From: Bradyrhizobium lupini
Lineage (GTDB): Bacteria; Pseudomonadota; Alphaproteobacteria; Rhizobiales; Xanthobacteraceae
NCBI RefSeq assembly: GCF_040939785.1
Contig: NZ_CP162553.1
Location: 2,480,001 to 2,544,000, forward strand
Direction of reading: 5' to 3'
DNA length: 64,000 bases
The notes beneath the pieces were generated by a model that had not been told where the DNA came from, made no database searches, and was given only the letters and a program-made list of their open reading frames with translations. Each line of letters opens with the position of its first letter. Position 1 is the stretch's first letter. Of the stretch, positions 1,672 through 64,000 are shown piece by piece. The position numbers were made by a program, and so were the translations under genes.

Positions 1672-2019
1672 CTATCCGATCCGCGTCGGACGCTGGGCTT
1701 CTTGCGGGTTGCGCCAATCGATTCCGGACAACAGGTAGCTCATCTGCGCCGGAGAGATCGTCACTGCTTCGCCGGCAACCGAAGGCCAGATGAACCGCCC
1801 TCTCTCCAGTCTTTTGGTGAACAGGCATGCTCCCTGGCCATCGTGCCAGATCACCTTCACAAGATCGCTTCGGCGACCGCGGAAGACAAACAGATGACCG
1901 CTGAGCGGGTCCTTGCGCAGCACCTCCTGCACCTGGAGTGCCAGCGTTGGAAAGCCTCGGCGCATGTCCGTGTAGCCTGTCGCAAGCCACACGCGCGCGC
2001 CCGTCGGAACCGGGATCAT
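1672..2019 (-). CDS. tnpB: IS66 accessory protein TnpB
   Basis: A 115-aa protein of the IS66 Orf2 (TnpB) family, an accessory factor needed for transposition by many IS66 elements. The family signature is clear: [14 protein letters not shown] near the N-terminus, then [19 protein letters not shown] and [17 protein letters not shown]. Length is normal (110-120 aa). Its ATG overlaps the tnpA stop by four bases (ATGA), which suggests translational coupling. It is intact, unlike tnpC. Confidence 0.92.
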
Positions 2020-2417
2020 CGGCGTACCAAAGCATCGAGAACGCGACGTAGTGCGTCTCCATCAACGTCGCCATCGACCCGGATGCGGTGCCCGCTACCA
2101 AGGTCGATCTCGATGATGCCCAGGCTCTTCCGTCGACGCGCCGCCGTCGTCGTCAGCGGCGCTTCGGCCACCTCCCGCGGCGGCACAGACGGCCCAATCT
2201 CGACCGGCACGAACGGCGCTATACTCGCTTCAGCGTGCTTGCAAAGCTCTTTGCGCCACCTAAACAGCTGGCTCACATGAAGGCCAGCCATGCGAGCCAC
2301 CTCGGAAACGCAGGCTCCGGGCTCGAGCGATGCTGCAACAAGCCGTTCCTTCTCAACCTGCGACCACCGGCGCCGCCGCTCGACCGATGTGATCACCTCC
2401 GCCCTCGAAATCGTCAT
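2016..2417 (-). CDS. tnpA: IS66 accessory protein TnpA
   Basis: IS66 Orf1 protein with a helix-turn-helix DNA-binding region ([19 protein letters not shown] followed by [20 protein letters not shown]). I chose the ATG at 2417 ([11 protein letters not shown]) rather than the longer reading because AGGAGA lies eight bases upstream; this gives about 133 aa. The C-terminal half is low in complexity and ends with [17 protein letters not shown], as in other IS66 TnpA proteins. It is the first gene of the IS transcription unit. Confidence 0.88.
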
Positions 2418-2533
2418 AGCGCTTCTCCTAGGATTACCCCTAGGACCTGCAGCGTTCGCGTCCGTCAAACAAGGCGGCCCTCAACGCAGGAATACCGGGA
2501 AAGCCCCTCGGTGGCACATCGAACGGGGCGATC

Positions 2534-2761
2534 GAGACCAAAGATCTCGAGCGGGTCGTTGTGGACACCACCATCCAGAAAAAGGCGATCTCGCATCCGA
2601 GCGATGCGTGGCTCACGCAACGGGCGATCGAGAAGCCGGTCGATTTGGCCAAACGCGAGTGCGTCGAACTGCGCCAAAGCTATCTGCGCGTGGCCAAGCT
2701 CGCCGCCATCATGGTGTGGCGCTACACGCACGCCCACCAGTTCAAGCGGCGCCGAAGATAA
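2534..2761 (+). pseudogene. IS5-family transposase fragment
   Basis: An open stretch of about 75 codons that starts inside the catalytic core of an IS5-type transposase: DLERVVVDTTIQKKAI (second catalytic Asp region), then SDAWLTQRAIEKPVDLAKR and LRQSYLRVAK, ending THAHQFKRRRR and a stop. It aligns with the transposase in the IS5-family element at 48.6-50.1 kb (VTVDTTVQPKAITFPTDAK). No N-terminal or C-terminal part adjoins it, so this is debris next to the IS66 end. Confidence 0.75.
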
Positions 2762-3107
2762 AACCTACCGACCACCCGACACCCGATCGCGGAATCGCCG
2801 TTGAGGGTTATGGTCATATCAGAGGTAAGGCCCGCCTGATGATCAACAGGACCTCGGACGGCGTATCGTTTTGCACGGTCTTCAGCAAACGCGGTCCGCC
2901 GGTGGACGTTGCCAATGTCAGGCCACGCGCCAGGCCGGTCCGCTTCCGCCTGCAAGTGAATCCTGAATTGGCTGCTCTTAGGAACGACGTAGCCTTCTTC
3001 GCGACACCGCCCTCCAATCTAAGTCCGGAACCTACGAGGAGTTCGGGGCCGAGGTCGAGGTTTTATTCTCAAGCTTTGATGATGCATCGCCCGATTCGGA
3101 GGATCCT
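2762..3107. other. gene-free stretch between IS fragments
   Basis: About 350 bases lie between the IS5 and IS481 fragments. Short open frames exist in several phases, but none shows a family motif or a ribosome-binding site. Probably remnant sequence. Confidence 0.4.
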
Positions 3108-3421
3108 CTATGCCAAATTTTACGCGGGCTGGCCACCACGACGGAGGCAGTCCTCGAGCAATTCAAAAATGGTCAAGGGAGCCTGAGAGCGCTCGCAAGG
3201 CGCAATGGGATCAACGACAGCATGAAACGCACGATCAAAGAAGTGACCGTTCAACGCTACCATTGGGATCGACACGATCAGCTGGAAGCTCAACTTGCCC
3301 CCCTTCAGCGCAATTGCGCTCGGCTGAAGCCCCCCACACCGTACGAATACATCTGCCAAAGGTGGGCCAGCCAGAACGATTCAGCGTGAACCAGCTCCTG
3401 CAAATGGCGGGACTAAACATC
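3108..3421 (+). pseudogene. IS481-family transposase with the catalytic core deleted
   Basis: The N-terminal helix-turn-helix (ATTTEAVLEQF, SLRALARRNGIN) is joined directly and in frame to the C-terminal tail (MKRTIKEVTVQRYHWDRHDQ, then TPYEYICQRW). In intact IS481 transposases about 200 residues with the DDE triad separate these parts. The frame meets TGA at 3387-3389, and the last residues (QPERFSVNQLLQMAGLNI) follow in another frame to 3421. So there is one large internal deletion plus at least one frameshift. It cannot encode an active transposase. Confidence 0.75.
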
Positions 3422-3546
3422 GAGGCCAGCTTCGACCCCCACCCACATCAGTTGCTGGCGCCGTTGTCGGATCCATCGACAGCACGTAGCTCGTTGCCGC
3501 CAAAAGCCGCGCCCCTGATCGGCTCCGTCACCCGCTTTACCCGAGA

Positions 3547-3576
3547 AAGGCCCCCGGCGGGCATGCCGGAGGCCTT
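3547..3576 (-). terminator. Hairpin after the porin gene
   Basis: A 12-bp stem with one mismatch (AAGGCCTCCGGC on the minus strand paired with GCCGGGGGCCTT) and a six-base loop ends about 58 bases past the porin stop and is followed on the minus strand by the pyrimidine-rich TTTCTC. It is likely the Rho-independent terminator of the porin mRNA; the U-tract is short. Confidence 0.6.
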
Positions 3577-3633
3577 CTTGGAGGTTAAACTTAGATCGAA
3601 GAGCCTTCTCTCCTTTCGTTGCGCTTGCAAAAT

Positions 3634-5166
3634 TCAGAAGTTGCGTTGAGCTCGAAGCAGCAACTGAAGGCTGCCTTGATCCTTGAGCTCATATGCCGCG
3701 GCAGGTTTGGCGATGCTCGACTGCAACGGAAGGGTAAAGGTGCTTCCCCCCACGTACTTCTGATCGAGCAACATGTACGAAAGCTCGCCCGTGAACGTGA
3801 GGTTCTTGACCGGACTCCAGGACGTCTTCGTACCAACGACTGCATAGTTGAAGTCGGGATTGCAGCCTGCGACCCCGGTCGAGAGAGCTAGGGTCGTGAC
3901 AAACGTTCCACAGATGTAGCCCTTGGCCGTGTTGTTGTAGCGTACAGCCGCCCACCCACCGAAAAGTGACGTGTTCCAGTATGGGTCCCAGTTGTGCGTG
4001 AAGCCACCATTGAAGCCATAGGTCCTCGTCAGCTGCTGTCCGGCACCGGTGACGAACACAGAATCAGAAACACCGGCAAGTCCGAGGCTTTGGTACGCAC
4101 CCGCGGCACTCGTGCCGCCGTACATCGCGAAGGTGCTCCCCATATAGTCATGGAAGTTGTAGCGGCTCGCACCGTTCGTATACACGGCCGTCAGGTTGAC
4201 CGTATCGCCAGCGCCGGTGGGCAGGTTCTTGATCGACAATGCCAGCTGTCCAGCCCAGCCCCACTTGTCTCCTGCATACCCAGTCGTTTCGTCGGCGCCG
4301 TAGTATCCCGTATGGTTGTCATGCGCGGCGAATGATGCCTGGAAAAGACCCCAAGCCTGATCGACGCGAACACGCGCGACAAGGTCGGGAGCTCGTGACC
4401 CGCCGAGGTCGTTGGCACCGTAGGCGCCGGTTGCAAGACCTGCAGCGGTTGCGCCGCTGACGTTCCAGACGTTACCCTGATAATTGGGAACCTGGTCCTG
4501 GGCCGAGAATGAAGCCGTAATGCCCTGGCCAAAATCCGCAGTGTAAGAGATCTGGTTCACAGGGTCCCAGCCGGCGCTACCCGGCAACTCCATGTTGTTC
4601 GCCGGATATTCGCCCCACGGCGTTCGGAACTGCGATTCCGCTTTGCCGAATGTGAAGCCGGCGAACTGGATGAAGGCGTAGTAGATACCAAGCTTACCGC
4701 CGGCAACCTGGCCGCCACCGCTTCCTGCGGGGTTGCTGCCATTGTACGCGGTCTGGCCATTCACGGCGGTCGTGCCAGCACCAGTATAACTGCCGGACGT
4801 CCAGGTGAACACCAGCTCGGCGAAGGTCCGGACCACACCGTATTCGGTCGCAGTCCGGGTGTCGATCTGAAGGTCCTGACGGGCAAGAGTCCCGTAGTAA
4901 TTGCTCAGTCGGTTCCGCGCCCCGTTAACACCACTGCTGGCAGCATCAAAGTCGGCGTTCGTGCCGAATGTGCCGTCGACACGCAAATAACCACCCAGCT
5001 TGATGCATGTGTCGGTGCCGGGGATATAATAGAAACCTGCACCGTAAAGTGAGCAGATTTTCACGTACTCAACGGCCTTAGCCTTGACAGGCAGATCGGC
5101 TGCCTGTGCCCCGGCGCCCGCGAACAGTGCCGCAGAACCGAGGATGAGACCTTTTGTTAGTTTCAT
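3634..5166 (-). CDS. Porin (Porin_2 family, Bradyrhizobium type)
   Basis: A 510-aa outer-membrane beta-barrel porin for passive diffusion of small solutes. A Sec signal peptide (MKLTKGLILGSAALFAGAGA, cut after AQA near residue 23) precedes ADLPVKAKAVEYVKICSLYG and TCIKLGGYLRVDG, the N-terminal signature of rhizobial Porin_2 proteins. The chain ends in Phe (LRAQRNF), as expected for the BAM-recognised last strand. AGGAGC lies upstream of the ATG. Length is normal for the family. Gene order, with a divergent MarR gene and a terminator and palindrome between them, hints at control at this junction, but nothing shows that MarR acts on the porin. Confidence 0.93.
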   Translation of the reverse strand: MKLTKGLILGSAALFAGAGAQAADLPVKAKAVEYVKICSLYGAGFYYIPGTDTCIKLGGYLRVDGTFGTNADFDAASSGVNGARNRLSNYYGTLARQDLQIDTRTATEYGVVRTFAELVFTWTSGSYTGAGTTAVNGQTAYNGSNPAGSGGGQVAGGKLGIYYAFIQFAGFTFGKAESQFRTPWGEYPANNMELPGSAGWDPVNQISYTADFGQGITASFSAQDQVPNYQGNVWNVSGATAAGLATGAYGANDLGGSRAPDLVARVRVDQAWGLFQASFAAHDNHTGYYGADETTGYAGDKWGWAGQLALSIKNLPTGAGDTVNLTAVYTNGASRYNFHDYMGSTFAMYGGTSAAGAYQSLGLAGVSDSVFVTGAGQQLTRTYGFNGGFTHNWDPYWNTSLFGGWAAVRYNNTAKGYICGTFVTTLALSTGVAGCNPDFNYAVVGTKTSWSPVKNLTFTGELSYMLLDQKYVGGSTFTLPLQSSIAKPAAAYELKDQGSLQLLLRAQRNF

Positions 5167-23734: not shown

Positions 23735-24675
23735 TAGTAACGGATCCTTGGGTCGAATAGCGGATAGGAAAGATCGACCACGAGATTGACGAGCATGTAC
23801 ACCGCCGAGAACACAAGTGTGACGCCCTGGATCACCGGATAGTCACGCTGGGAGATGGCGTCGACGAGGAGCCGACCAATGCCCGGAATATTGTACACCG
23901 TTTCGGTGATAACGGCTCCGCCGATGAGAAAACCAAGCCCCATGCCAATCACAGTGACGATCGGCAGTGCCGCGTTCTTCAACGCGTGCTTCAGCAGCAG
24001 CGGCCCACCCGCGACGCCTTTGGCACGCGCCGTTCGCATAAAATCCTCGTCGAGCACCTCGAGCAGAGTGGAACGGGTAATGCGGGAAATCAGCGCGATG
24101 AAGATTAAGCCGAGAGTCAGCGTCGGCAACGCTAGGCTGCGCAGCCACGGCCCCAAGCCGTCTGCGATAGACGAATAGCCCTGTACAGGAAGCCATTTCA
24201 GCTTGATTGCGAAAATATAAATGAGCCCGTACCCGACAACAAACACCGGTATCGAGAAATCCAGCACCGCGAACGCCATTACGAGCCGGTCGAACGCTGC
24301 GCCGGCCTTTGCGGCGGCCGCTATGCCGAGTAGCAGCGCCAGGGATACTGCAAAGAACGTGGTCGTGATCGTGAGTGAGAGGGTGGGTTCAATGCGTTGC
24401 GCGAGCAGCGTCGTGACGGGCGTCCCCCAAAGGATCGATTGGCCGAGATCGCCCTGTAGCAGGTTGAGAGCCCAAACACCGAATTGCCACCAAAGCGGTT
24501 CGTCAAGGCCCATCTTGTTGCGCATCTCCGCGATGGTTTGCGGTGTTGCGCTGTTGCCTGCCATGACTGCCGCGGGGTCGCCGGGCGCAAGATGTAGAAG
24601 AACGAAGATGATGATTGCTGCGATCAGCATGACAGGAAGAATCGAAAGCAGACGCCGAATAATATAGCTCAACAT
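23734..24675 (-). CDS. Oligopeptide ABC permease, DppB type
   Basis: A 313-aa permease beginning MLSYIIRRLLSILPVMLIAA, the usual DppB start, with HLAPGDPAAVMAG and the EAA loop RTARAKGVAGGPLLLKHALK. ATG at 24675 with GGAGG about 11 bases upstream; the 63 codons further upstream in the open frame belong to the end of the preceding gene's region and are not family-like. Confidence 0.92.
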   Translation of the reverse strand: MLSYIIRRLLSILPVMLIAAIIIFVLLHLAPGDPAAVMAGNSATPQTIAEMRNKMGLDEPLWWQFGVWALNLLQGDLGQSILWGTPVTTLLAQRIEPTLSLTITTTFFAVSLALLLGIAAAAKAGAAFDRLVMAFAVLDFSIPVFVVGYGLIYIFAIKLKWLPVQGYSSIADGLGPWLRSLALPTLTLGLIFIALISRITRSTLLEVLDEDFMRTARAKGVAGGPLLLKHALKNAALPIVTVIGMGLGFLIGGAVITETVYNIPGIGRLLVDAISQRDYPVIQGVTLVFSAVYMLVNLVVDLSYPLFDPRIRY

Positions 24676-24745
24676 GGATTTGATGCCTCCGGCCTTCTCG
24701 ACCCGATAGCTGTGAGGTTGCTTAGAGTTGTTCGCTATTGCTGAC

Positions 24746-25996
24746 CTATTCGCGCAACCTGCGGGCCAACGCGAGCAGATGTGGCATGAAGGATCCGTCG
24801 CCAGCCCCTCTGTCGATAGGATGCGACGAGAATCGCATCGCCACCATTTCTGCTTTCGGTGCAATGTACAGGCGCTGGCCGTAGGAACCCCGAGCCTCGA
24901 ACGCGCCTAGCTCGTTGTGCGAAATCCACCACATGCTGAGATAGGAATAACCGGGCAGTAGGGTATACTCCGCCCTCGCGAACTTAGCCGGATCGCCGCC
25001 TCGTTTTAAGTCGTATGCGACCGCGGCGGGAATGAGCTGCTTGCCATTCCAGTCGCCTTCTCGCCGCATGAGTTCGCCGAAGCGCGCCACGTCGCGCAGC
25101 GTTGCGAACAGACCGCCGCCGGCGCTCGGCGTTCCAGCTGGATCCACCGTGATGTAGCCGTCCTGCTCGCAGCCAAGCGGCGCCCATAAGCGTTCCTGAA
25201 GCAATTGCGTGAACGAACGGCCGGTCACGCGCGCCAGCACCCACGCCAGCACGTCGGTGTTGACAGTCTTGTAGTCGAAGACCTCGCCATGCTCGCCCTC
25301 CTTCTTCACCGTGCGCATGTAATCGCATAAGGTGACCGGCCCAGCGTAGTCGGCCGGGCGCGGCCAGCTACCGCTCGCGTATGACCAGCCCTCGATTCTG
25401 TCCTCGCGGTAGTCGACTGCGACCTGCATGTCCATCACCTGACGTAGCGTCGCGTCCGCCCAGCCGGATCCCCGCAACTCCGGTACATAGTGGGAGATCG
25501 TCCTGCCACCCTCAAGCTCGCCTTCATGCAGGAGCGAGGCGGCGAGCGTTCCTGCATATGACTTTGTAATCGACATGCAGTGATGTGGCAGGTGCGGCTC
25601 GAGCGCACCGAAGTACCGCTCGTACACGATGCGTCCACGGTGCAGCACCACGATCCCGTCGGCATAGGTATCGGTGAGGGCTTCGTCAAATCGGCGAGTG
25701 CGGCCCTCAGCGTCGGTGGACTTCATCTCGTCGATCTCGGCTTCACGATCGTAGCGCTCGAACAGCGAAGGCGCGCCAGGCCCGCGCCACACGTTTACCG
25801 TGGGTGCAAGTTCGCGCATGTGCGAAAACGACCAACGCCTCCTTGGAAACCCCCTAAAGTTGCCGCTTGCGAACGAAATGCGCTTGTCGTCCGGTGGTGG
25901 CGAACCGAGCATCCAGCCGCACTCGCGTGGATCGGACGCGTGTGGATCTGGATACTGCTTGCTGTCGAATTCGAACATTTGTTCGGGAAGAGTCAC
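24746..25996 (-). CDS. Serine hydrolase, beta-lactamase class C / 6-aminohexanoate-dimer hydrolase type
   Basis: A 416-aa penicillin-binding-protein-fold hydrolase. The nucleophile motif SxxK is S142-I-T-K145 (HHCMSITKSYAGTLAASLL), and a Tyr-containing motif DYKTVNTDVLAWVLARVTG follows. There is no signal peptide, so it works in the cytoplasm, like NylB and related carboxylesterases/amide hydrolases. The GTG start at 25996 has GGAG five bases upstream. It sits between the binding protein and the permeases of a peptide importer, so it probably cuts the imported amide or ester. Confidence 0.88.
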   Translation of the reverse strand: MTLPEQMFEFDSKQYPDPHASDPRECGWMLGSPPPDDKRISFASGNFRGFPRRRWSFSHMRELAPTVNVWRGPGAPSLFERYDREAEIDEMKSTDAEGRTRRFDEALTDTYADGIVVLHRGRIVYERYFGALEPHLPHHCMSITKSYAGTLAASLLHEGELEGGRTISHYVPELRGSGWADATLRQVMDMQVAVDYREDRIEGWSYASGSWPRPADYAGPVTLCDYMRTVKKEGEHGEVFDYKTVNTDVLAWVLARVTGRSFTQLLQERLWAPLGCEQDGYITVDPAGTPSAGGGLFATLRDVARFGELMRREGDWNGKQLIPAAVAYDLKRGGDPAKFARAEYTLLPGYSYLSMWWISHNELGAFEARGSYGQRLYIAPKAEMVAMRFSSHPIDRGAGDGSFMPHLLALARRLRE

Positions 25997-26015
25997 TGGA
26001 GCTCCACAGTTGAGT

Positions 26016-27590
26016 CTAAACCTTGTCCACGTTCCACCAAGGTATGAAATAGCCCGAGGGGCTCTTGAGCATACCTTTGATGTTGGCGCGCATCAGGGAC
26101 GGCTGGACCCACTGGCCGTACCAGGCATAGAGCACGTAATTCCAGGCGTTGTCCTGCATCTCACGAGCGATCTTTTTTCGCTCGTCCATTGCGTCGGACT
26201 GCCCCCACTTCTTACGCAGCTCCTCGTGCTTCGCGTCGCTCGGCCAACCCCACATACCCTTCTCGCCGTTCGCCTGCTGGATAACACCGAGTGGGAAGGC
26301 AGCGTCCGCGACCGCTATCGAGGAAGGAAAGATGTTCCAGCCGCCCTGGTCCTGAGGCCCCCTCACGGCGCGGCGCGCCACGAGCCCGGCCCAAGCCATT
26401 GCGTGGAGCTGCACGTTGACGCCGGCGCGACGCAACTGCGCGGCGAGGATCTCGGCAGCAACTTTTCCGTTCAGCCAATCGGTCGGTTGTAGGATTACAA
26501 CGGGACGTCCGTCGTACCCCCCTTCCTTCAGGAGTTGCTTCGCCTTGTCCACGTTGGGCGCGTCCCTAAACCAGGCGGTATTGGCATCGTTTTCCATCGC
26601 GGTGCCACAGGCGAAGTAAGACGCGCAGGTCTTGTAATAGCCAGGATTGGGGAAATTCACGTTAAGGAATTCGGACTGGTCGACGAGGTGCAGCACCGCC
26701 TGGCGACACTTTACATTGTCAAAAGGCGGCTGCAGAAAATTGAATCGGTAGAATCCGATCTCTCCGCCGTAAAGGGCCTCTAGCTTAACGTTCTCGTCCT
26801 TCGAAAGCTGGTCCAGCAAGTCCATTGGCGTCTCGGGGAGGAAGTCAACCTCGCCCGCCTGCACCGCGGAGACAGCCGTCTGCGGATCCGGGATGTGCAC
26901 AAACATAAACCTGTCGATCTTGACGACTTTGCCGCCAGCCATGCCACTGGGCGGCTCATTGCGGGGCACATAGTCCGGATTGCGGTCATAGACATATTGC
27001 GCTCCCGGCTTTGTTTCGGCTTCGTTGAACTTGAAGGGGCCCGAGCCAACGATCTCGCTGATTTTCACCGTCGGGTCGGTCTCGGCCTCTTTCTTTCGCA
27101 TGATGAATGGCCATGAGAGCGCATCCGGGACCAGACCGAAGCGCTCCTTGAGCTCAAGCGCAAAGGTTTTATCGTCCCTGGGTGTAATGTCCTTCAGGGA
27201 CTCCAATAGCGCGGAACCTAATCCAGACCGCTCCGCCCAACGCCGGATCGAGGGAATGACGTCTGCCGTGGTGACCCTCGTGCCGTCGTGGAACTTGAGC
27301 CCCTCGCGCAATTCGAAGGTCCAGGTGAGCTTGTCGTTCGAAACCTCGTACTTGCCGACCATCTGCGGCCGCGGAATTCCTTGCTGGTCGAACCCGAAGA
27401 GCGTGTCGTAGACTTGGCAGGCGTGGCGGGACGTGGCGTAAGATGTACCCACAACCGGGTCATACACATCGATCTTGCCGACCGCCTTGATAATCTTGCG
27501 ACCCTGGCCCATCGCTATGCGAGGGGTGGCTGCCGTACCGACGGCAGCGAGACCGGCTTGAATGATCGCGCGGCGCGTGAACTCATCCAT
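26016..27590 (-). CDS. Oligopeptide-type ABC binding protein (SBP family 5)
   Basis: A 524-aa periplasmic binding protein. ATG at 27590 (MDEFTRRAII) has GGGAG upstream. The leader TRRAIIQAGLAAVGTAATP has twin Arg and may use Tat. SBP_bac_5 features include LTWTFELREGLKFHDGTRVT and VGSGPFKFNEAETKPG. It is the first gene of the six-gene unit (binding protein, hydrolase, DppBCDF) and should define the substrate, which the sequence does not reveal. Confidence 0.92.
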   Translation of the reverse strand: MDEFTRRAIIQAGLAAVGTAATPRIAMGQGRKIIKAVGKIDVYDPVVGTSYATSRHACQVYDTLFGFDQQGIPRPQMVGKYEVSNDKLTWTFELREGLKFHDGTRVTTADVIPSIRRWAERSGLGSALLESLKDITPRDDKTFALELKERFGLVPDALSWPFIMRKKEAETDPTVKISEIVGSGPFKFNEAETKPGAQYVYDRNPDYVPRNEPPSGMAGGKVVKIDRFMFVHIPDPQTAVSAVQAGEVDFLPETPMDLLDQLSKDENVKLEALYGGEIGFYRFNFLQPPFDNVKCRQAVLHLVDQSEFLNVNFPNPGYYKTCASYFACGTAMENDANTAWFRDAPNVDKAKQLLKEGGYDGRPVVILQPTDWLNGKVAAEILAAQLRRAGVNVQLHAMAWAGLVARRAVRGPQDQGGWNIFPSSIAVADAAFPLGVIQQANGEKGMWGWPSDAKHEELRKKWGQSDAMDERKKIAREMQDNAWNYVLYAWYGQWVQPSLMRANIKGMLKSPSGYFIPWWNVDKV

Positions 27591-48556: not shown

Positions 48557-50073
48557 GTCGTCCGTTAAGAAGCCGAATTGAGCGGGAGCGGACAGGCAAG
48601 CGTATGCGATAGCTGGATCAGGAAGAGGCACAAGAGTTCTCTGAGCCAGGCGAGGATACGGCGGAAGTTGTGGCCGACTGCTGAGAGCACGACGTTGGCG
48701 GCGTCGCCGGCGCGGCCTTTGAGATAGCAGCGGCCAAGGTGACCTTCGGCCTTCAGATGTCCGATGATGGGCTCGATGGCGGAGCGGCGCCGGAACTCGC
48801 GCTTGATGGCGCCGAACACGCCGCGCTTCCGGCCCGAAATGTAGACGCGACGGGGATTTTGCGTGTCGTGGCCGCGATATCCCTTGTCGACATGGGCCCG
48901 CTCGATCGGACAGCCGGTGAGCGCCCCTTTCGATGACGTCCCGCAGGGTATGACCGTCGTAGGGATTATCGGGCAGCGACCTGGCGTGCAGTACGAACAG
49001 GCCACCGGGCGCCCGGCGGTTGTTGGTGACGATGGAGGCCTTCACGCCGAACTCGTAAGGGGCTGCGGCCTTGCCTTTGCCGATGCATTCCACCTCCGGG
49101 GCATAGAAGGAATAAAGCTTCCAGCCGCGCTGGCGCTGCTGCTGCGAGCGGATTCGCACGGCCCGGCCAAGCGGGAGGGCGAATGCCTCCTCCAGTGCCG
49201 GCTGGCCCTCGATCTTGCGGCGGATGTCGCGGATGATACGGCCGAGCCGGCTGCGCAGAATGCGCAACTGCCGCTGATGCCGGCTGAACTGTTTGGCATG
49301 GGCGTAGCGGCCCGCCATCATCGCGGCGGCCTTGGCCCACGAGAATAGGATTGCCGCAGCCTGACGGCGTGCCTTCTGGCCAGGCGGTTGAGCCCCTTGA
49401 TAGCCGCATGAAGCAGCTTGGCATCAGTCGGAAAGGTGATGGCCTTCGGCTGCACCGTGGTGTCGACGGTGACGCGCTTGAGGTCCTGGCCGCGTAACGC
49501 GCCGGCCTCGTGCGCCACCCGCAGGCTCTCCGCCAGCAGCAGCTCCAACTTGTCGCCGAGCCGCTTGCGCCAATGGCTCAGGTCCGAGCGCTCGTGCGGG
49601 AAGGCATGCTGAAAGAACTCTTGCCCGGTGAAGAACTGGAAATACGGGTCGTGAACCCAGCGCTCGCAAACGCCCTCATCGGACAGCCCGTAAGTGTGCT
49701 TGAGCAACAGCAGCCCGATCATGAACCGGGTCTCGATCCCGGGCCGGCCATTCTCGCTGTAGAGCGGCGCGACCTCGCCGTCGATCCAGTCCCAATCGAT
49801 CTTGCCGGCCAGCTGAACCAGCTCGTGCTTCATGTTGATGATCTGGTCCAGCCGCGCCCGGAACAGATCGTTCGATCCCGTCGTCCTGTGCTTCTTCGGT
49901 CGCATCGGCCCCTCCGATGCACCACAGAATCATGGTCCGCAGCGAAAGGGAATCCACAAACGAAAATTGCAAGGTTTGGGGGCCTCAAGCCCCCAATCCC
50001 TGCAATCTCAAATGCCGCCGCAACCGGAAAACTGACTCCTGCTCAATCGCTTAGAGCCTTGTTCACGGACGAC
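48557..50073 (-). mobile_element. IS5-family element with 6-bp flanking duplication
   Basis: About 1517 bp with inverted ends GTCGTCCGTTAAGAAG (left) and, read inward, GTCGTCCGTGAACAAG (right). TAAGAC flanks both sides (48551-48556 and 50074-50079); removing the element and one copy restores the reading frame of the Tat signal it interrupts. Its transposase is frameshifted twice. Confidence 0.85.
48565..49905 (-). pseudogene. IS5-family transposase, two frameshifts
   Basis: Starts at 49905 (MRPKKHRTTGSNDLFRARLD) and has the IS5 N-terminal domain (FMIGLLLLKHTYGLSDEGVC) and VTVDTTVQPKAITFPTDAK with the first catalytic Asp. Frame changes near 49345 (SYSR to MMAGRYAHAKQF) and again near 48915 (TLRDVIE to KGALTGCPIERAHVDKGYRG); DKGYRGHDT, then IKREFRRRSAIEPIIGHLK with the catalytic Glu, are in the third frame. 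Each break is explained by one base. The intact protein would be about 440 aa. Confidence 0.88.
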
Positions 50074-53155: not shown

Positions 53156-53273
53156 ACCTTTTCGGATAAAATAGCCGAGCAAATGCACCAGCATTCCCCC
53201 TCTACCTACGAATGTGCAGTAGGAACCTGTACGAATCTGAAATATGTGTAAGTTTTTGGGGGTAAATATAGCG

Positions 53274-54197
53274 ATGGCCGGCCTGTCATTCGAAATCCTT
53301 ATTGATGACGCCCTTGCCGGCATCACTTCCGTGTCTCAGCTCACCACTTTGGTAAACAAGCGCGTTCTAAGCTTAATTAACGACTTCGAAGACACCGAGT
53401 GGCGGTATCTCAAATTCCAGAGTTACCTCTGGGACAATATAGCTGAAACCGCATTGTCCCAAAGAGAGCGATCCGCACTTGTGGATCAGAGTCACAGCAG
53501 CCTCATAGCAGCGGCTCAGAACCTCAGATTGACTGACAAGGACGAGGTGGGTCAGGGAAGCGAAATAGCCGAAGTATTCTTGTATGGCCTAATGCGCCAT
53601 CGTTTTGGCGCTCTGCCTGTCGTTCCGAAGATATTTTACAAACAGAATGTTCAGGACAACGCCAAGGGAGCAGACAGCGTACACATTGTAGTGAAGGGCG
53701 ACGACTTCACACTGTGGTTCGGCGAAGCGAAATTCTACAACTCCATAGCTGATGCTCGCCTCGATGCAGTAGTGACCTCCGTCTTGAACTCACTATCGAC
53801 CGATAAGCTGAAGAAAGAAAACGCGATCATCACCAGCGTCTCGGACCTGGATGGACTGCCGATCCCCGCACGCCTTCGAGAGAAGATCAAAGCCGCTTTG
53901 AGCAACCGCGAGTCGATCGACAAGCTGAAGGCGAAGATTCATATACCGATCCTTCTATTACACGAATGCCTCACGACGGCCGCTGCCAGCGAGTTATCGG
54001 AGACCTACAAGACGGAGTTGGCCGCCTTTCACAAGGAACGGGCTGAGTCTTACTTTTCAAAGCAGCTCGCAAAATCCAGTTCGGTTCACAAATACGATGA
54101 TCTCAACTTCCACATCATACTCTTTCCGGTTCCAAGCAAGAAGAAGATCGTTGATGCGTTTGTCCACGCCGTCGCCTTCTACAAAGGACAGAAATGA
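53274..54197 (+). CDS. hamA: Hachiman defence protein HamA (DUF1837 nuclease)
   Basis: A 307-aa HamA/DUF1837 protein, the nuclease effector of Hachiman. It has a PD-(D/E)xK-like core: acidic DD near the N-terminus, D134 in KGADSVHIVVKG and the E151-x-K153 pair in LWFGEAKFYNS. In characterised systems HamA is held by HamB and degrades DNA after damage or infection is sensed. The ATG at 53274 (MAGLSFEILID) is preferred to 53244 since GGGGG lies upstream; the choice is uncertain. Its stop overlaps the hamB ATG (ATGATG). Intact, without stops or frameshifts. Confidence 0.9.
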   Translation: MAGLSFEILIDDALAGITSVSQLTTLVNKRVLSLINDFEDTEWRYLKFQSYLWDNIAETALSQRERSALVDQSHSSLIAAAQNLRLTDKDEVGQGSEIAEVFLYGLMRHRFGALPVVPKIFYKQNVQDNAKGADSVHIVVKGDDFTLWFGEAKFYNSIADARLDAVVTSVLNSLSTDKLKKENAIITSVSDLDGLPIPARLREKIKAALSNRESIDKLKAKIHIPILLLHECLTTAAASELSETYKTELAAFHKERAESYFSKQLAKSSSVHKYDDLNFHIILFPVPSKKKIVDAFVHAVAFYKGQK

Positions 54198-56311
54198 TGG
54201 AGATTTTTGAGACCTGTCAGGAGATTAACAGGCTGCTATCGATCCAGAATGAGCTGGCTGCCAGAAATCTATTGATACAGCTGCTGGCAGACCTGGATCG
54301 GGTCAAGACGCCCTACCCGCAGTTGGTGAACCATATGATCCGCGCGACGGGCCTGTTTCCCTACCTGCAGCTTGAGAGCGCGTCGTGGGACCAGAAATAC
54401 GTACATCACGCGTTTGAGGTTGACGTTGGCCGCCGATTGGCAACCCTACACCGAGAGCAATCCTCTGTCCTTGCCAGACTTCTGAACGGGAGGAGCATCG
54501 CGGTAAGCGCCCCAACGAGCTTCGGAAAGAGCTTTATCATTGACGCATTTATAGCCGCAAAGCATCCGGACACGGTTGTGATCATCGTCCCGACAATCGC
54601 GCTCATGGACGAAACACGAAGGCGACTGTTCAAGAAATTCTCCGAACACTACACGATCATAACGGCACCGGATACGCGGCTCGGACCTAAGAACATCCTC
54701 ATCTTTCCACAGGAGCGCGCCTTCGGATACCTGGCATCCCTTAAAACGATCGACCTTCTCGTCGTCGATGAATTCTACAAGGCGAGCCAAGAGCACGATC
54801 CCGAGCGCGCCTCCTCTCTGGTAAAAGCGATCTTAAAACTTTCGAAGAAGGCAAGCCAGCGGTACTACCTTGCACCGAACATCAAGAAACTCAACGATAA
54901 TGCGTTCACGCGCGACATGGAGTTTGTTGAACTCCTCGATTTCAATACCGTGTACTTGAATATCCAAGAACCGTACAAGGAATTTGGAGGAGACGCCGCC
55001 AAGAAGGGCGCGAAGTTGATTGAGCTGATTTCTCCGGGCGATGAAAAATCACTCATCTACGCTGGTACTTACACTGAAATCCGAAAAATAGCCGACCTTG
55101 TCATCAAGAACCTGCCAACCGTAGATCGGATTTACACCTCAGCGTTCGCCAAGTGGCTGAGGGAAAATTACGAAAAAGACTGGCTCTTGGCCGATCTGGT
55201 GGAGCGGGCAGTCGGGGTTCACAATGGCAGCATGCACAGGTGCCTGAGCCAGCTGCAGATCAGGCTGTTTGAGTATGAGGACGGCTTTGACAGCATTGTC
55301 TCCACGTCTTCCATCATTGAGGGCGTCAATACTTCTGCTCAGAATGTGATCGTATGGCGCAGTAAGCTTGGCAGGACTAACCTCAAGGATTTTACCTACA
55401 AGAATATTATTGGCCGCGGCGGGCGCATGTTCAAGTATTTCGTCGGCAACATCTTTCTGTTAGATGCGCCGCCAAAATCGGAAGATGCCCAACTCGAAAT
55501 CTCGTTCCCAGATAACATGCTGGGAACTCTCGACGAAGATGGCGATGCAGACCAGCTGACAGACCGTCAAATTGAAAGGATCGTCGAGTACAGAACCCAA
55601 ATGTCCGACATCATTGGCGAGGAACAATTCGCACGTCTCAAGAGGGAAAGTGTTCTGCAGGACAGCGACGCAGACTTTCTGCTGCGCTTGGCAAAAGACA
55701 TGAGAGACGCTCCAGAGGATTGGAAGGGGTTCGGCTATCTCAACTCGTCAAATCCAGCCCAGTGGGACTCCATGCTGTACAAAGTGCTCAAGCTCAAACC
55801 CGGCGGTTGGGATACAACATGGTCTAACGTGGTGAATGTGACCAAGGAGATTGCGCACAATTGGCGTGATGATTTGTCCCAGATTATTTCGACCTTGAGG
55901 CAAAACGGTATTAGCATAGAGGACTTCTTCAAACTGGAGCGGACTGTTACATTTAAATTGTCTGCTCTCCTCGGCGACACAAATGAGCTTCATAAGATCA
56001 TCGTGAACCCTGCTGTTGATATTTCAGGGTTCGTAGGCAGGATGAGCCGCGCGTTCCTTCCTAGTGCAGTCTACCATCTTGAGGAATACGGCCTACCGCG
56101 CATGATATCGAAGAAGATCCAAGCGGCCGGTCTCATCAATTTTGAAGATCCTGACATGGATCTCCTCAGGGCACTCGACCGATTCAAGTTTTTGGGGATT
56201 AACGCCGTACTAGCGATCAAATCTCTAGGGCCTTTTGATCGCTACGTTGTGCGCTTCTTTTTCGATGGGATTACTCCTGACGAGTCCCAGACACCGGATG
56301 ACGCTTCATAG
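54194..56311 (+). CDS. hamB: Hachiman defence helicase HamB
   Basis: A 705-aa superfamily 2 DNA helicase. Walker A is APTSFGKSF (106-114), motif II is DEFY (192-195, in LLVVDEFYKASQEHD), motif V region STSSIIEGVNTSAQNVI (370-386) and motif VI IGRGGR (406-411). The C-terminal 280 residues have no familiar domain, as in HamB proteins. Start at 54194 overlaps hamA by four bases; ATG at 54197 is an alternative. HamB is thought to track along DNA, sense its integrity and release HamA. It forms a two-gene operon with hamA. Intact. Confidence 0.92.
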   Translation: MMEIFETCQEINRLLSIQNELAARNLLIQLLADLDRVKTPYPQLVNHMIRATGLFPYLQLESASWDQKYVHHAFEVDVGRRLATLHREQSSVLARLLNGRSIAVSAPTSFGKSFIIDAFIAAKHPDTVVIIVPTIALMDETRRRLFKKFSEHYTIITAPDTRLGPKNILIFPQERAFGYLASLKTIDLLVVDEFYKASQEHDPERASSLVKAILKLSKKASQRYYLAPNIKKLNDNAFTRDMEFVELLDFNTVYLNIQEPYKEFGGDAAKKGAKLIELISPGDEKSLIYAGTYTEIRKIADLVIKNLPTVDRIYTSAFAKWLRENYEKDWLLADLVERAVGVHNGSMHRCLSQLQIRLFEYEDGFDSIVSTSSIIEGVNTSAQNVIVWRSKLGRTNLKDFTYKNIIGRGGRMFKYFVGNIFLLDAPPKSEDAQLEISFPDNMLGTLDEDGDADQLTDRQIERIVEYRTQMSDIIGEEQFARLKRESVLQDSDADFLLRLAKDMRDAPEDWKGFGYLNSSNPAQWDSMLYKVLKLKPGGWDTTWSNVVNVTKEIAHNWRDDLSQIISTLRQNGISIEDFFKLERTVTFKLSALLGDTNELHKIIVNPAVDISGFVGRMSRAFLPSAVYHLEEYGLPRMISKKIQAAGLINFEDPDMDLLRALDRFKFLGINAVLAIKSLGPFDRYVVRFFFDGITPDESQTPDDAS

Positions 56312-56820: not shown

Positions 56821-57032
56821 CAATAGCGGCACCCGGGAACGGGGCAGTGATAGCGATCGCCGCAGGCGAGCCCCTTTTCCGAGTGCCCCCGGCGAGGAGT
56901 TCCGCATCCCTTTGCGCGAGGGATCGACACCGCCCGGCCGAGACGCAAAGCTGCTCGGTTCAACGAGAGCGGTGCGGCGGCCGCCGCACGCGCTCTGGCC
57001 GAGCAACTCCACCAAAACTTGAATCAGCGGAC

Positions 57033-57215
57033 CTAGATTTCCTCGCGCGCATGCGTCTGCGCGTCATAGATCCTGATCTGAAGCATGGGAAAACGCTTCT
57101 TCAGTTCTTCGCCACCTGCTCTGGCGCCGTCTCTGGTTGCAAATTCAGCTTTGAACCGGCCGTCCAACTCAAACGCGTAACCAGAGGCCGGCAATTCACG
57201 GGTGGCTGCAACCAT
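57033..57215 (-). CDS. Small conserved protein next to the thermonuclease
   Basis: A 60-aa acidic-basic protein (MVAATRELPASGYAFELDGR ... EELKKRFPMLQIRIYDAQTH). Its ATG starts one base after the stop of the thermonuclease gene and GGGAA lies before it, so the two are coupled. No domain is recognised, though similar small proteins seem common in rhizobial mobile elements; that is from memory and not checked. The predicted fold is beta-beta-alpha-beta-like (VFELDGRFKAEFAT, helix GARAGGEELKK, strand LQIRIYD). Confidence 0.65.
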   Translation of the reverse strand: MVAATRELPASGYAFELDGRFKAEFATRDGARAGGEELKKRFPMLQIRIYDAQTHAREEI

Positions 57216-57216
57216 T

Positions 57217-57868
57217 TCATTCCCATTGTGCAGTGAGGTGACTGGAGTGATCGGTAGCGTGAGTCGCCCAATCCGCGCCAGAGCCATCGGCCCAAATGCG
57301 GTGATAAACAATTGCCTTGTGGGTTGGCGCCTTGCTGGGATGGCAACAAGGATGGGCATTTCCATCATCTGAACAGGCGGACGGCCTTCCACTTGCGCGG
57401 ATGCATGCACGATAGAGCCACGGCTCGACATAGCTGCCCTTCCAGAGACCCTGGCCCGCGCGCTCAGCCTCGCGCTGAGCTTCCTGATATCTGCCCCTCG
57501 AGTATTGAGGCCAATCCAACGCAAGGCCGTTGCGTACAAACCATTCCCCGAGGTCCCTGCCTGCGACCGAGCAGGTCGCGACCGTGCGGCCATATGGGTC
57601 GAGGCTGATTGGAACACAATTGACGGGACGGCGGGCAATGAAGGCGTCAAGGTCGTTCGCGGCCTGCGGACCACATCGATACTGTAAGCTGTCTTCGCCG
57701 CGGCACAGCTGCCTGCTCTCCGGTGCATCGACGCCCCAAAGCCGGATGCGCACGCCATGCATTTCCAGGGTGTCGCCGTCGATCATGCTGGCCTGTCCGA
57801 CAAAAATCGTCGGCCAGCGCCACACTCGACAGAATGGCGAGAATCAGCGCGACAGAGGTTCGACCCAT
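57217..57868 (-). pseudogene. Thermonuclease-family protein with a frameshift after the signal peptide
   Basis: The signal peptide MGRTSVALILAILSSVALA (start 57868, GGGA close before it) is in one frame and the nuclease in the next: SMIDGDTLEMHGVRIRLWGV, DAPES and YGRTVATC carry the staphylococcal-nuclease residues (Asp in DGDT, Arg in RIRLWG, Glu in DAPE, Arg in YGRT). An extra T in GATTTTTGTCGG near 57807 explains the shift. The body to 57217 is otherwise intact. It would be a secreted or periplasmic DNase/RNase. A homopolymer indel is also a common sequencing error, so the gene may be functional. Confidence 0.8.
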
Positions 57869-58020
57869 TCCCTTGACCTTGTAGCTATCGCAAATCTCGC
57901 GGACTGAATGACAAATAGCTATTCGGTACCCGAAAGCTTGGGTTGCCACAAAGCGCAATTGCTGTAGTTCTCGATCGAGGATTGTCGCCCGATTCTCGAT
58001 TCCTTATAGTTCCGCGCATC

Positions 58021-59731
58021 GTGAGCACTGCAGAGCCCATTCCCGCAAACGCCCCGGTTCCCGTTATATTTGCGCGCGACGCGAATACGGCAGCGCTTGC
58101 TCCGATCGCACGACCTGCAGTCGCGGTGATACCACAATACAGTACCTGGAATGATTTCACCTACTATTTCACCGCGCGCCTGCTGGTGCTGCTGCCGCAA
58201 CAACAGCCCGTACCGTTCGATATGCATTTTATGGTTTCTGGGTTCGATCGAACTGACGACTTCTTCAAGCAACTCCTTCTTCACCAACCTTGGGTGCCGA
58301 TCGAGCTTGCGAATGCGAGCTACGTTGGCATTCTCGATAGCATTGAGTCATACGGCTCGCTGATTGAATTGCTTGGCTTCGCGCGCGCTATGACGTCACT
58401 GCGATTGCTCGGTGACGCGGTCGTTCTTCGGACAGAGGGCACGGATACCGCACGTCTGGCGCTTTTCGACACAGACCGATTTCACCTGGGCGCGCTAAGG
58501 GCCAGCTCCAACTATGTCGCGTTCCGCCACGGGCGTCGCTATTTGCGGCCCGAACCGCAAGCTCCAGTCCCTGATGCGGCGACAAGCTTCCACATGGCGA
58601 CGAACCTGCTTGCGGCCGACAATCCCTATGACATCAATTTCGACTTTCGATCGGACGAACTTAATCGTGATCGTGTCGCGGTCCTCATTGGACGAAACGG
58701 AAACCGGCAAGACCCAGCTTTTGCTAAGCCTCATCCATTCGCAACGATCTCCCCAAGTCGGCGAGCCAGCAGTCTCGACCGCTTTCGAAACCACCCCAAC
58801 GTTCAGCCGATTGATGGTCTTTTCATCTGTGGCGTCGGACTCCTACCCACGATCGATCCCGCCTTGGGAAGGCGTCGACTATCAGTATTTTTCGATGATT
58901 GCCAATACGGACACTGAGGCCGATGCATCGACCGGCGCATTGATCGATTGCCTGCGCGATCACAGGCAGTTTGAGCCTTTCTCCCAAAGTATGCCATTTA
59001 GCGGACCGAGTCGGCTGAACATGCTGGAAAGGTCGCTAGCCCCCCTGTCCTTTTCAAAGACGATCCACCTGCCTCTCAGGGATCAATCGGAGCCTCACGA
59101 TCTGTTCGACGTGAGAACCTGGCAGGGTAGAGCCTATTTTCCCCTGTTCAGATCGTTGAACGAGCAGCGCCAGCTGCAGTTGGTTCGCATGGTCGATTGG
59201 TCCAGATCGCCGGTGACGTTCGGCCTGGGCGAAGCGCCCCGTACAATCAGCAGCGGAGAGCAAGCGATGCTGAGGTTTGCGGCCCAGGCCGTTGGGTCGA
59301 TCGAACAAGGCAGTATGCTGTTGTTCGACGAACCGGAAACGCACCTCCACCCGAATTATGTTTCGGACTTCATGTCGATCCTGCACACGCTGCTGGCCGC
59401 GACGAGATCCGTGGCAATTATCGTGACACATTCTGCTTATATCGTAAGGGAAGTCCCTCGGCAGCGTGTCCGAATATTATCACTGAAAGAGAGAGTGATT
59501 TCGATCGATCAACCTAGGCTCCAGACGTTCGGAGCGAGCATTGAGAGCATTTCCCAGTTTGTATTCGGCGATAGCGACATCTCCCACGGTTACCAGGACT
59601 TGCTGGTAGATTGGGTCAATCGTCTCGGCACCGAAGTGACGATCGAGCGCATTGTTCAGGAGCACGGCGAGAGGTTGAATCCAGAAACACTCTCTTGTGT
59701 GGCCCACCTCCTTCGCATGCGACAGCAATGA
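58021..59731 (+). pseudogene. AAA/ABC-like ATPase of a defence pair, frameshifted in the P-loop
   Basis: An ATPase of about 570 aa of the SMC/OLD type. Start is uncertain (GTG 58021 used; TTG 57943 also open). About 225 residues of unrecognised N-terminal sequence (YSTWNDFTYYFTARLLVL, FMVSGFDRTDDFFKQLLLHQ) precede the P-loop, which reads VLIGRNGN and then breaks: an extra A in GGAAACCGGCAAG near 58700 puts GTGKTQLLLSLIHS in another frame. That frame stays open to 59731 with signature TISSGEQAMLRFAAQ, Walker B MLLFDEPETHLHP and H-loop IIVTHS. The stop overlaps the HNH gene's ATG. The composition, ATPase then HNH, is that of Septu (PtuA-PtuB), but the N-terminus differs from what I know. Confidence 0.8.
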
Positions 59732-60557
59732 TAGCGCTAACCGCTCCATCGTCTGCGGAGGACGATGCTTACCTCAACATGATCTGTGCGGAGCCGGCCT
59801 GGGCTAATTACCTTGGCCTGTGGGCATCATGTTATCAGGCCTATCGCGTACATGGCGGCAATCCGTGGTCGATCGTTGGCTCGAAATTCCCGGCGGCAAT
59901 GGGCACGGTTCAGCAGAGGCTTTACGAGAACCGAAAGAGTGTAACTCGCTTCAAGAACCTGCGCAGCCAGCAAGTCGCCAGCCGTCCCATGTGTGGGTCT
60001 TCGGTCACGGGCGCCCTGGACCACTTTCTGCCAAAGGAAACCTTTCCTGAGTTTTCGGTCATGGCGGCGAACCTCGTTCCGGCCTGCACGAGCTGCAACT
60101 CATCGGTCAAGGGCAGTACCTATAAAGGTGAAAGCCCGGAGGAGTGGCTCATTCATCCTTACTTCGACACGCTGGCCAACTCCGACCTCTGGGAGATACG
60201 GATTATCCAACCGTATCCGGCAGCCGTTTTGAAGCTATTCCCAGCTCTCACCATGCACCGTCCGTGCAAAAGCGTATCGCTTTTCATTTGAAGTATGTGC
60301 TCGGTGAGCAGTTTCAGCGCGCCTGTACGAACGCTTGGGCGACGCTACCACAACATATGCGCAACATGGGACCCACGGCTGGCCTCATTTCTGTCGCCGA
60401 TATCCGTGCAGAGCTCATCAAGCTCGTGAGCTATCATTATATCACGACGGGACGAAACGCCTGGTTAGCTGCGTTCCACCGCGGACTGCTGGGGGACTTG
60501 CCGGCTCAGGCATTCGTTGCGGCACAAGCGACGACACTTACAAAGTTGGTTCTCTGA
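59728..60557 (+). pseudogene. HNH endonuclease of a defence pair, frameshifted
   Basis: The ATG at 59728 overlaps the ATPase stop by four bases (ATGA). A treble-clef HNH motif lies at about residues 90-130: RPMCGSSVTGALDHFLPKE (H of LDH), FPEFSVMAANLVPACTSCNS with a second Cys pair. A frameshift at about 60215-60260 separates this from the C-terminal part, which continues open as KRIAFHLKYVLGEQFQRACT and IRAELIKLVSYHYITTGRNA to 60557. Intact length would be about 275 aa. In related pairs the ATPase controls the nuclease, which cuts DNA upon infection. Confidence 0.78.
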
Positions 60558-61307: not shown

Positions 61308-64000
61308 ATGAGCGCAGGAGATCAGCTTCCGGAACTAAGGTATTCGAAGGAGTTTCGGCAGTACCAACGAGCAGCTATTCAGAAGGCCCGGCGCTACCGG
61401 GGCAACTTTCTTAACGCAGTCTCAGCTGGAAAGTCGGCGCCCGGGCTTTTCTCGTGTGCCATCCGACAGGAACGGGCAAAACGGCGGTTATTGCCGGTCT
61501 GTCGCAAGCATCCCCAGAGATAGGGAATGTTTTGGTCCTGACGACGCGCGAAGCGATACGTGACCAACTCACGCGCGAGATCAGCGGCAACATTTTTATA
61601 GAAGAGGACAAAGTCAATCTTGGTCCCAAGATACGGCTCGCAAAGAACACGTATGTCGTTAACGAGAGCCGGATACTGGAAGGGCAGGTGCAAGAGCTCC
61701 ACGAGGCTACCATCAGGCACTTCTCTCCCAAGTTGAAGGACTTCTCTGCGCGGCAATTCGACCGGCTTGTCGAAGACCCGGGGAATATCGTCTTTGGCGA
61801 GCTTAGCAAAAACCGCTCGATCATGCTTATGACCGTGCAGATGCTCATCGGACTCGATATCCGCGGGGCTTGCTACAAAGCTCTTCGTGACCACATTGAT
61901 CTGATAGTGTTCGACGAAGGACATTACGAACCGGCGGCCAAGTACAGTGCGGCTGTTCCGCGGCCTTGTAAAGCCGATCATCCTGCTTTCCGCCACCCCT
62001 TTCCGCAACGATCTGAAACCGTTCAGTATCGAAAAGAGCAGCATTCACCTCTACAGATTCTCCGAAGCAGTTGACGATAAAATCATACGAAAAGTCGAAG
62101 TAATCCAACGGCCGCGGACTTCCGATGCAGAGGTCTTTTGCTTGGATGTCATCAACTTTGCAGAAGAACAATTTGGCTCTGATCGCTCGAAGTGGCCTCG
62201 TATCATTATTCATTGCGAGGACATGGGCGCATCACGAGGCTTGGCGAGCGATTCATCGCCCATGGGTTCGGCGGGAAATTGGTCGCAATACACGACCGCT
62301 ATTCGACGAAAGGCGCCGACCATCAGTCGGCAGCATCGATCGGTGCCTCCGCCAAGGCTACCGACGCCCAAATTTGGATACATCAGTATAAATTGATGGA
62401 AGGTATCGATGATCACCGATTTCGAATTTTAGCGTTCTTCGATCCGCTTGGAAATGTCAGATCGATAGTCCAGCAGGTCGGTCGCGTTATCCGCTTGACG
62501 CCGGGCGAATCTGTGGAGCCGGCATTTGTCCTTGATCATTTCCAGGGACGGATAAGTCGGGCCTGGGAGCTTTTCAGCTCATACGACAAATCGATCAGCC
62601 CGGAATATCTCACCAAGACGATGTCCAAATTCTACCTGGAAAAATTTGCGGCTGTTCAGCCCGAGATCGATTACATCTCGAAGAAATTCAGGGAGCGCCA
62701 CGAACTCAACAAAATTGCTGCGGCAGACAATGAAATTCTGTTCGACCGACGCGTCGTGTTCAAACGCATCTCTGGCGTCCGATACGTTGAAATCACTTGC
62801 GAAACAAGTCGAAGAGGAACTGGTCGTCGAGGATTGCGAATTCAAGCAATACCCCTTTGGTAAGGAAGCTGTCTTATTCGTCTACGCCAAGGTGGCGAGC
62901 CCGGACTTTCTAAACACGCTGTACTTTGCCGAAGTGCGGCATGGTGCCCGGCTCTTGATCCACCTGCCGAAGTACCAGATGCTCGCCGTAGCCGGAGCGG
63001 GTTCGAGTGCCGGTTCGGAGGGGTTGGGCCATCTCGAATCGATAGGGCCGGAAAAGCTTGAATGTCTCCTCATGCCGGGGCAATTGGGTCGCATCAGCAG
63101 CGTCATCCCAGAACACCAATCTAGGAAATCGCGTGGTGCGCAGGCGCATCATCTCCGCGCCCTCAATCGCGGAAGTTCCCCCCATTTTGGATGAACACGG
63201 CCATATCGTTTCAACTGTCACCGGATACAATGGAACCGCCGCGAAAGTCGTCGACGATCTGGAGTACTGTGAATTCGTCGATGAGGAGATGAACATAGTG
63301 GACATCGCGCCTCCCGCGGCCACGAACGTGGGCACCTCGCTGCCCGCAGATTTAATCCGGCGATATATCGGGATTGGGAGCGGAAGAGTTTCTGAACAGG
63401 GCCCGCCACTCCGCCTGAACGCAGTCCGACAATGGGTCGGATCGCTTACTGACCAGATGGATACCGGCGCCCGCTACGACGCCGTTTACGATCGCTATGC
63501 GGCGCTCTCGGCGTCCGCCGTCGCCAACGGAGCGGCAAGGAATCTGCTGCTCGATATTTTCGATATCTCAGACCAATACAGGCACAAAGACACTGGCGAT
63601 CTTATGAGCAGCGACGACCTGTGCGTCGATCGCACCGGCACGTCCGCGGCTTCAGACGGAAAACTTTCCTCGTCGTTCAGAATAGCGATCAATGGTGAAA
63701 CGTATTTGGTGGACGCCATCTTCAACCCGGGCTCCCAGCGATACAAGCTCAAATCGCCCTCTCTCGACACGGCATTCGTGAGTACGGGAGCGAGAACGCG
63801 ACCACTCTGCCGCGCGTTGAATGATCTACAGTCTTTCAGCATAATCCCTGACGATATTAACGTCATTTACGTCCATGGCCGCTTCTACGCGCCAGGACTA
63901 AAGTTCGGATCACGATTTACTCCGACGGGCTTTTTTGTCGGTCACTGCCTCTACCCCTCTGAGACATTCAGGAACATCTCATCGGAGAAAGGAGCTTCCG
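61308..64000 (+). pseudogene. Large SF2 DEAD/DEAH helicase, about five frameshifts, runs off the window
   Basis: Starts at ATG 61308 (MSAGDQLPELRYSKEFRQYQ). The helicase core is spread over several frames: VCHPTGTGKTAVIAGLSQ (motif I, about 61455), LIVFDEGHYEPAAK (motif II), PIILLSATPFRNDLKPF (motif III), and SIVQQVGRVIRLTPGES (motif VI). Frame changes lie near 61450, 61943, 62225, 62790 and 63105. From 63183 (PPILDEHGHIVSTVTGYNG) the frame is open to the end of the window with an unrecognised C-terminal domain (FRIAINGETYLVDAIFNPGS). Over 890 aa would be encoded. It is placed in the same defence island as Hachiman and the ATPase-HNH pair. Confidence 0.75.

Follow-up and report, generated by a model that had tools for sequence, protein, structure and literature searches.

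What do two overlapping genes in Bradyrhizobium lupini, an ABC/OLD-type ATPase gene followed by an HNH nuclease gene and each split over two reading frames, encode, and does the system still work in this strain? The pair occupies positions 58021-60557 on the plus strand of the analysed window, a stretch of 64,000 nucleotides (contig NZ_CP162553.1, 2,480,001 to 2,544,000) within a 7.83-Mb, single-contig genome; all coordinates below are window positions unless another record is named. A sequence-only reading of the letters had likened the pair to Septu PtuA-PtuB and had raised the possibility of a distinct, little-described defence family. The family is in fact already catalogued as the candidate system PDC-M01 in PADLOC-DB 2.0.0, and the window pair is a decayed member of it. 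On the strength of the PtuB-like partner and the PADLOC match, the pair is probably a decayed, apparently recent, copy of this two-gene system, which would work in the manner of Septu.

The ATPase gene opens with a GTG start codon, and its 5' piece (58021..58703, plus strand) encodes an N-terminal domain (approximately residues 1-180) and the opening strands of the ATPase core as far as a frame break beside the Walker A motif, past which the open frame continues out of register. The 3' piece (58680..59731, plus) carries the remainder of Walker A, the ABC-type signature (SSGE), Walker B (DEPE), the H-loop (THS) and the C-terminal part, and ends with the TGA stop codon at 59729-59731; its open reading frame was listed from 58514, and family similarity begins only at about 58700. 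The HNH start codon (ATG at 59728) lies inside the ATPase stop codon region, giving the ATGA overlap (59728..59731, plus) that had been read from the letters. The 5' piece of the HNH gene (59728..60290, plus) contains the HNH motif, and the 3' piece, in another frame (60222..60557, plus; open reading frame listed from 60144), encodes a helical C-terminal part. Scanned separately against the PADLOC models, both ATPase pieces fall collinearly on PDLC04242 (PDC-M01A; model positions 3-219 of 566, E 8.7e-55, and 224-561, E 1.2e-116) and both HNH pieces on PDLC04268 (PDC-M01B; 2-177 of 275, E 1.9e-58, and 166-268, E 4.1e-16). Judged by these profile scores, the family match of the pieces is far above chance. 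The dedicated PDC-M01 models thus match both adjoining genes, and they match intact relatives over their whole length.

For the N-terminus of the ATPase, the sequence-only reading had claimed about 225 residues ahead of the P-loop that match no familiar domain. The length is right, since in P0005, an intact relative, the Walker A lysine is at position 230; about 180 of these residues form a separate domain and the remainder aligns with the ATPase core. As to domain matches, the claim holds for Pfam and NCBIfam, neither of which has a match within the first 180 residues among the matches listed, but not for PADLOC, whose PDC-M01A models cover intact relatives end to end and are the only ones, among the matches listed, to hit the N-terminal domain of the window ATPase. 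The domain is kept across distant relatives. A search with the N-terminal region of P0005 returned 14 proteins, 12 of them with Pfam ATPase domains and two without (P0124 and P0126), which consist of the N-terminal domain and the first part of the ATPase and then end early. The N-terminal domain of a second relative, P0077, used alone as query, recovered a single fragment of 137 residues, from a contig of 544 bases. Reuse of the domain with another effector was not found by these searches, whose reach is limited to relatives of similar length with exact words in common. An open reading frame on a Bradyrhizobium barranii plasmid, annotated as an 'abortive infection family protein', was considered as a fusion of this kind and rejected: its 5' part comes from a PDC-M01A ATPase and its 3' end is unrelated (3917-4876 of locus L144), and it is read as a deletion remnant, another decayed copy in the genus. 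Because the N-terminal domain is conserved and positioned in front of the ATPase, it probably has a sensory or regulatory role. That the ATPases of this family share an N-terminal domain that is missing in front of the solved PtuA cores was not found stated in the literature searched.

The pair resembles Septu. All of the closest structural matches of the HNH model are PtuB proteins, with the same HNH residues and spacing, and the best structural matches of the ATPase core (model residues 181-509 were used for the structural comparisons) are PtuA proteins, other ABC heads of the Rad50/SMC- and UvrA-like types scoring nearly as well. A sequence search of PDB chains with the HNH profile placed PtuB at E 0.33-0.42, which is uninformative. 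The order of the genes, ATPase then HNH, is also that of Septu, so that the likening of the pair to Septu was sound. The PtuAB effectors of type I-A retrons (Ec78/Eco7, Ec83/Eco4) are likewise among the best structural matches of both the ATPase core and its PtuB-like partner, but they differ in their N-terminal region; no reverse transcriptase was present among the Pfam and PADLOC matches of the nine window open reading frames or pieces scanned, a scan of proteins and not of non-coding RNA such as msr-msd.

These likenesses raise the question of whether the pair is simply Septu, PDC-M01A being a subtype of PtuA and the N-terminal domain a minor elaboration without a sensor role. Besides the structural matches and the shared gene order, this explanation draws on the PtuA1 model PDLC00282, which hits the C-terminal part of P0005 (5e-33) and covers in full the phage lambda protein Ea59, a distant homologue discussed below. 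According to its available text, a Bacillus cereus study describes PDC systems as candidates not yet published; in it the PDC-M01 label was dropped and 41 such calls were counted as Septu duplicates (PMC11811056). The N-terminal domain and its conservation over distant relatives argue the other way. Solved PtuA structures align with the model only from residues 174-186 or so to 510: in E. coli Septu PtuA, residue 1 already pairs with model residue 186, and in retron I-A PtuA, residues 40-62 pair with 174-184, so that a domain of 180 residues would not fit ahead of the PtuA core, the front being the part compared. The expectation that the ATPase would not match PtuA along its full length was accordingly borne out for solved PtuA. 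Among the matches listed (best 25 each), those of PtuA models to the window ATPase, P0005 and P0077 are likewise confined to the C-terminal part, and the Walker A lysine is K43 in Septu EcB88, as opposed to about residue 230 in the PDC-M01 ATPase. A plain Septu identity is therefore judged rather unlikely, although the full coverage of Ea59 by PDLC00282 blurs the border with Septu and makes distinctness from it a matter of degree. Of the phrase 'distinct, little-described', the first half needs this qualification, and the family is not uncatalogued since PADLOC models exist; the second half stands, as the literature searched, insofar as its text was available, yielded in silico predictions of PDC-M01 only and no experimental report.

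For intact copies of PDC-M01, the following course of events is proposed. The ATPase would assemble with the HNH nuclease and restrain it, and the N-terminal domain would act as a sensor or regulator recognising an infection cue; in type I-A retrons the recognition of the cue is assigned to the reverse transcriptase-msDNA partner. Once triggered, the HNH subunit would cut nucleic acid, either host tRNA, as in retron-Eco7 and Septu EcB88, or DNA, and cleavage would stop phage growth. The available text of PMC11555353 describes depletion of tRNA-Tyr and abortion of infection by retron-Eco7 PtuAB, and cites DNA as the reported target of the Septu system of E. coli ATCC25922. By homology, PDC-M01 is expected to be an HNH nuclease that its ATPase holds in check until infection sets it off.

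The copy in the window is apparently a recent pseudogene pair. Profiles built here from intact relatives place a single frame break in the ATPase gene, beside Walker A, and a single one in the HNH gene, in agreement with the one frameshift per gene proposed from the letters. Furthermore, the first cysteine of the HNH CxxC motif, a zinc ligand, is replaced by arginine, whereas it is cysteine in 78/78 relatives; the remaining HNH residues checked are retained. The copy thus departs from other PDC-M01 members in its two frame breaks and its lost zinc cysteine, neither gene having a functional open frame, and with these three lesions the system is most likely dead in this strain. The frame offsets would also fit one-base length changes introduced by sequencing or assembly errors, and the up to 93% identity to intact Bradyrhizobium proteins could be taken to mean that both genes are unbroken in the living strain. 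Such errors are an unlikely cause. Coverage by open reading frames of at least 100 aa averages 0.92 over 20 stretches of this genome and 0.89 over 20 stretches of another Bradyrhizobium (0.76-0.94 in the window's own 8-kb blocks), and since the former value is not below the latter the assembly is not generally frameshift-ridden. The loss of the invariant cysteine, the adjoining ResIII-type helicase gene, which seems to be split as well, and another Bradyrhizobium in which only a remnant of the pair is left (G256/L045) all favour decay of the pair over error.

Elsewhere the two genes are conserved as neighbours, as had been anticipated. A protein search gave 679 relatives, of which 120 were listed; the closest named proteins belong to Bradyrhizobium and share 91-93% identity with the query across 89% of its length. 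In GTDB genomes, a scan confirmed 375 relatives, and among the best 80, which were kept as loci, an HNH gene of the same family follows the ATPase in all 79 with room on the contig (78 identified by picking open reading frames, at hmmsearch E 1.5e-34 or better, and one, L068, in a longer overlapping frame), the 80th (L085) stopping at the contig end. In most loci the genes overlap or sit within a few bases of each other. Record titles of the 80 loci include Myxococcus, Archangium, Microbacterium, Verrucomicrobia and Elusimicrobia, and the loci presumably include alpha-, beta- and gammaproteobacteria, judging from the genera named. Within the genus, 6 of 265 genomes match at E 1e-30: three with a whole ATPase and its HNH partner, one cut by a contig end, the present genome, and a sixth with a C-terminal remnant and the HNH gene in two frames. 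Among 149 sampled genomes of the host's family, this genome is the only one that matched PDLC04242 at 1e-30. At E 0.001 the search used on the genome itself also gave matches, owing to general ATPase similarity, in 12 of 14 control genomes, and at 1e-30 in none; as scoring was limited to the top 8 or 5 candidates in each genome, the genome counts are lower bounds. Among plasmids, 14 of 72,556 records match, two of them from B. barranii and over 40% only (a remnant).

The flanks of the relatives are rich in PADLOC matches, which is supporting evidence for a role in defence. Open reading frames flanking 13 relatives (102, out of 164 around 22 loci) matched 117 PADLOC families at E 1e-20, compared with 7 families, including AbiLi and AbiLii, for 100 control frames; these numbers are of families, several of which may match one frame, and not of defence genes, and the control is a single other Bradyrhizobium genome set against different hosts. 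The 25 flank families listed, each matched by one frame, include a CBASS cyclase, a 2TM effector, AbiEi, AbiEii and GajB, as well as restriction-modification enzymes, ShosA and a DRT-associated helicase. This setting bears on the proposal that the pair is not a defence system but an ATPase-nuclease pair of DNA repair or housekeeping, to which the near-equal scores of the Rad50/SMC- and UvrA-like heads lend some colour. The patchy presence in the genus, the carriage on plasmids and phage, the PADLOC-rich flanks and the PtuB-like partner make such a function very improbable. A programmed frameshift that would express the ATPase from two frames by design has the position of the break next to a critical motif in its favour, but can be dismissed almost entirely in view of the unbroken ATPase frame of at least 500 aa in 74 of the 80 related loci (the other six being short, some at contig ends), and of the second break and lost cysteine in the partner gene.

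The decayed PDC-M01 pair also has relatives in phage. When phages were searched by tblastn with P0077, 17 records out of 50,697 matched, each of which contains the lambda ea59-ea31 stretch at no less than 99%. The identity of this stretch to P0077 is 24.7-24.9% across 93% of the query (E 8e-22 to 2e-21). In lambda (NC_001416), ea59 (25396-26973, minus strand), the ATPase-type partner, and ea31 (24509-25399, minus), annotated as an HNH endonuclease, lie in the b region in the same order as in PDC-M01 and with the same four-base ATGA overlap (2010-4474 of locus L142). Ea59 matches the PDC-M01A model PDLC04235 at E 3.9e-201 and the PtuA1 model PDLC00282, over its full length, at 5.4e-184; its match to the window's own model PDLC04242 has an E of 1.1e-25 and starts only at residue 161. 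For Ea31, the match to the PDC-M01B model PDLC04256 is at 5.8e-113. Conversely, the best PHROG matches of the intact bacterial relatives tried are phrog_8066 (Ea59 family, unknown function) and phrog_10378 (Ea31, HNH endonuclease), with values of 5.2e-51 and 4e-48, and 1e-20, the best stretches being the C-terminal ATPase part and the HNH motif. Profile comparison gave 99.8% for Ea59 and 99.3% for Ea31. The N-terminal domain is detectable too: the N-terminal stretch of Ea59 alone matches the family profile of this domain at E 9.4e-8 (best of 200 shuffles 0.42), and hhalign gives 48.1%, a weak value, with the near-clade profile alone and 93.2% with the far-clade profile (best of 20 shuffles 0.55 and 2.14). 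Ea59-Ea31 differs from the bacterial pairs in its identity of only about 25%, in being phage-borne and in its shorter N-terminal part, with the Walker A lysine at 201. A search of viral structures did not have lambda Ea59 among the best 50 of 575 matches, so the lambda link rests on sequence profiles; by these, Ea59-Ea31 is a distant homologue of the window pair.

Of 5426 E. coli genomes, 68 contain at least 80% of the length of the lambda pair; in DE3-type phage records the stretch is represented by only about 35%. Both genes are given as non-essential for lambda in the available text of PMC10695390. No report of what ea59 and ea31 do was found, and no defence role for either appeared in the titles or opening abstracts searched, bioRxiv preprints and most subscription journals lying outside that search, and membership of Ea59-Ea31 in the PDC-M01 family was not found stated in the literature searched. 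It is tentatively suggested that PDC-M01 may be a distinct branch of ATPase-gated HNH immunity with its own N-terminal sensor, and that Ea59-Ea31 may be a member of it, a Septu-like prophage module that would arm lysogens against other phages.

In the window, the PDC-M01 pair shares its surroundings with a Hachiman pair 1.7 kb upstream, a separate system of the same defence neighbourhood that consists of intact hamA (53244-54197, plus; HamA, 317 aa) and hamB (54194-56311, plus; HamB, 705 aa) genes overlapping by 4 bases. A transposase piece (DUF772) is located at 49318-49905, about 3 kb upstream of hamA. The thermonuclease-like gene at 57006-57904 (minus) lies in two overlapping frames, is possibly broken, and has approximately 87% identical DNA in 9 Bradyrhizobium plasmid records. 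Downstream of the PDC-M01 pair, the ResIII/DEAD-type helicase gene (61308-62863) is apparently split over several frames, and of its scanned pieces only 61454-62071 has a Pfam match; 63058-63999 weakly matches PADLOC PDC-S71 (E 3.9e-6). No tRNA genes were found in the window. The G+C content of its 32 two-kb blocks is 0.506-0.639, with 30 at or below 0.613, compared with 0.599-0.658 for 20 sampled stretches of the same genome, which is consistent with an island.

Taken by itself, the locus is an ordinary decayed defence gene pair, but it leads to a widespread, database-named family whose conserved N-terminal domain is an obvious candidate for an infection sensor. Through its link to Ea59-Ea31 the family can be tested in the phage-host pair that is known best, ea59 and ea31 both being dispensable for growth according to the available text of PMC10695390. 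If true, a defence role in lambda would explain two long-known genes that the phage does not need in order to grow.
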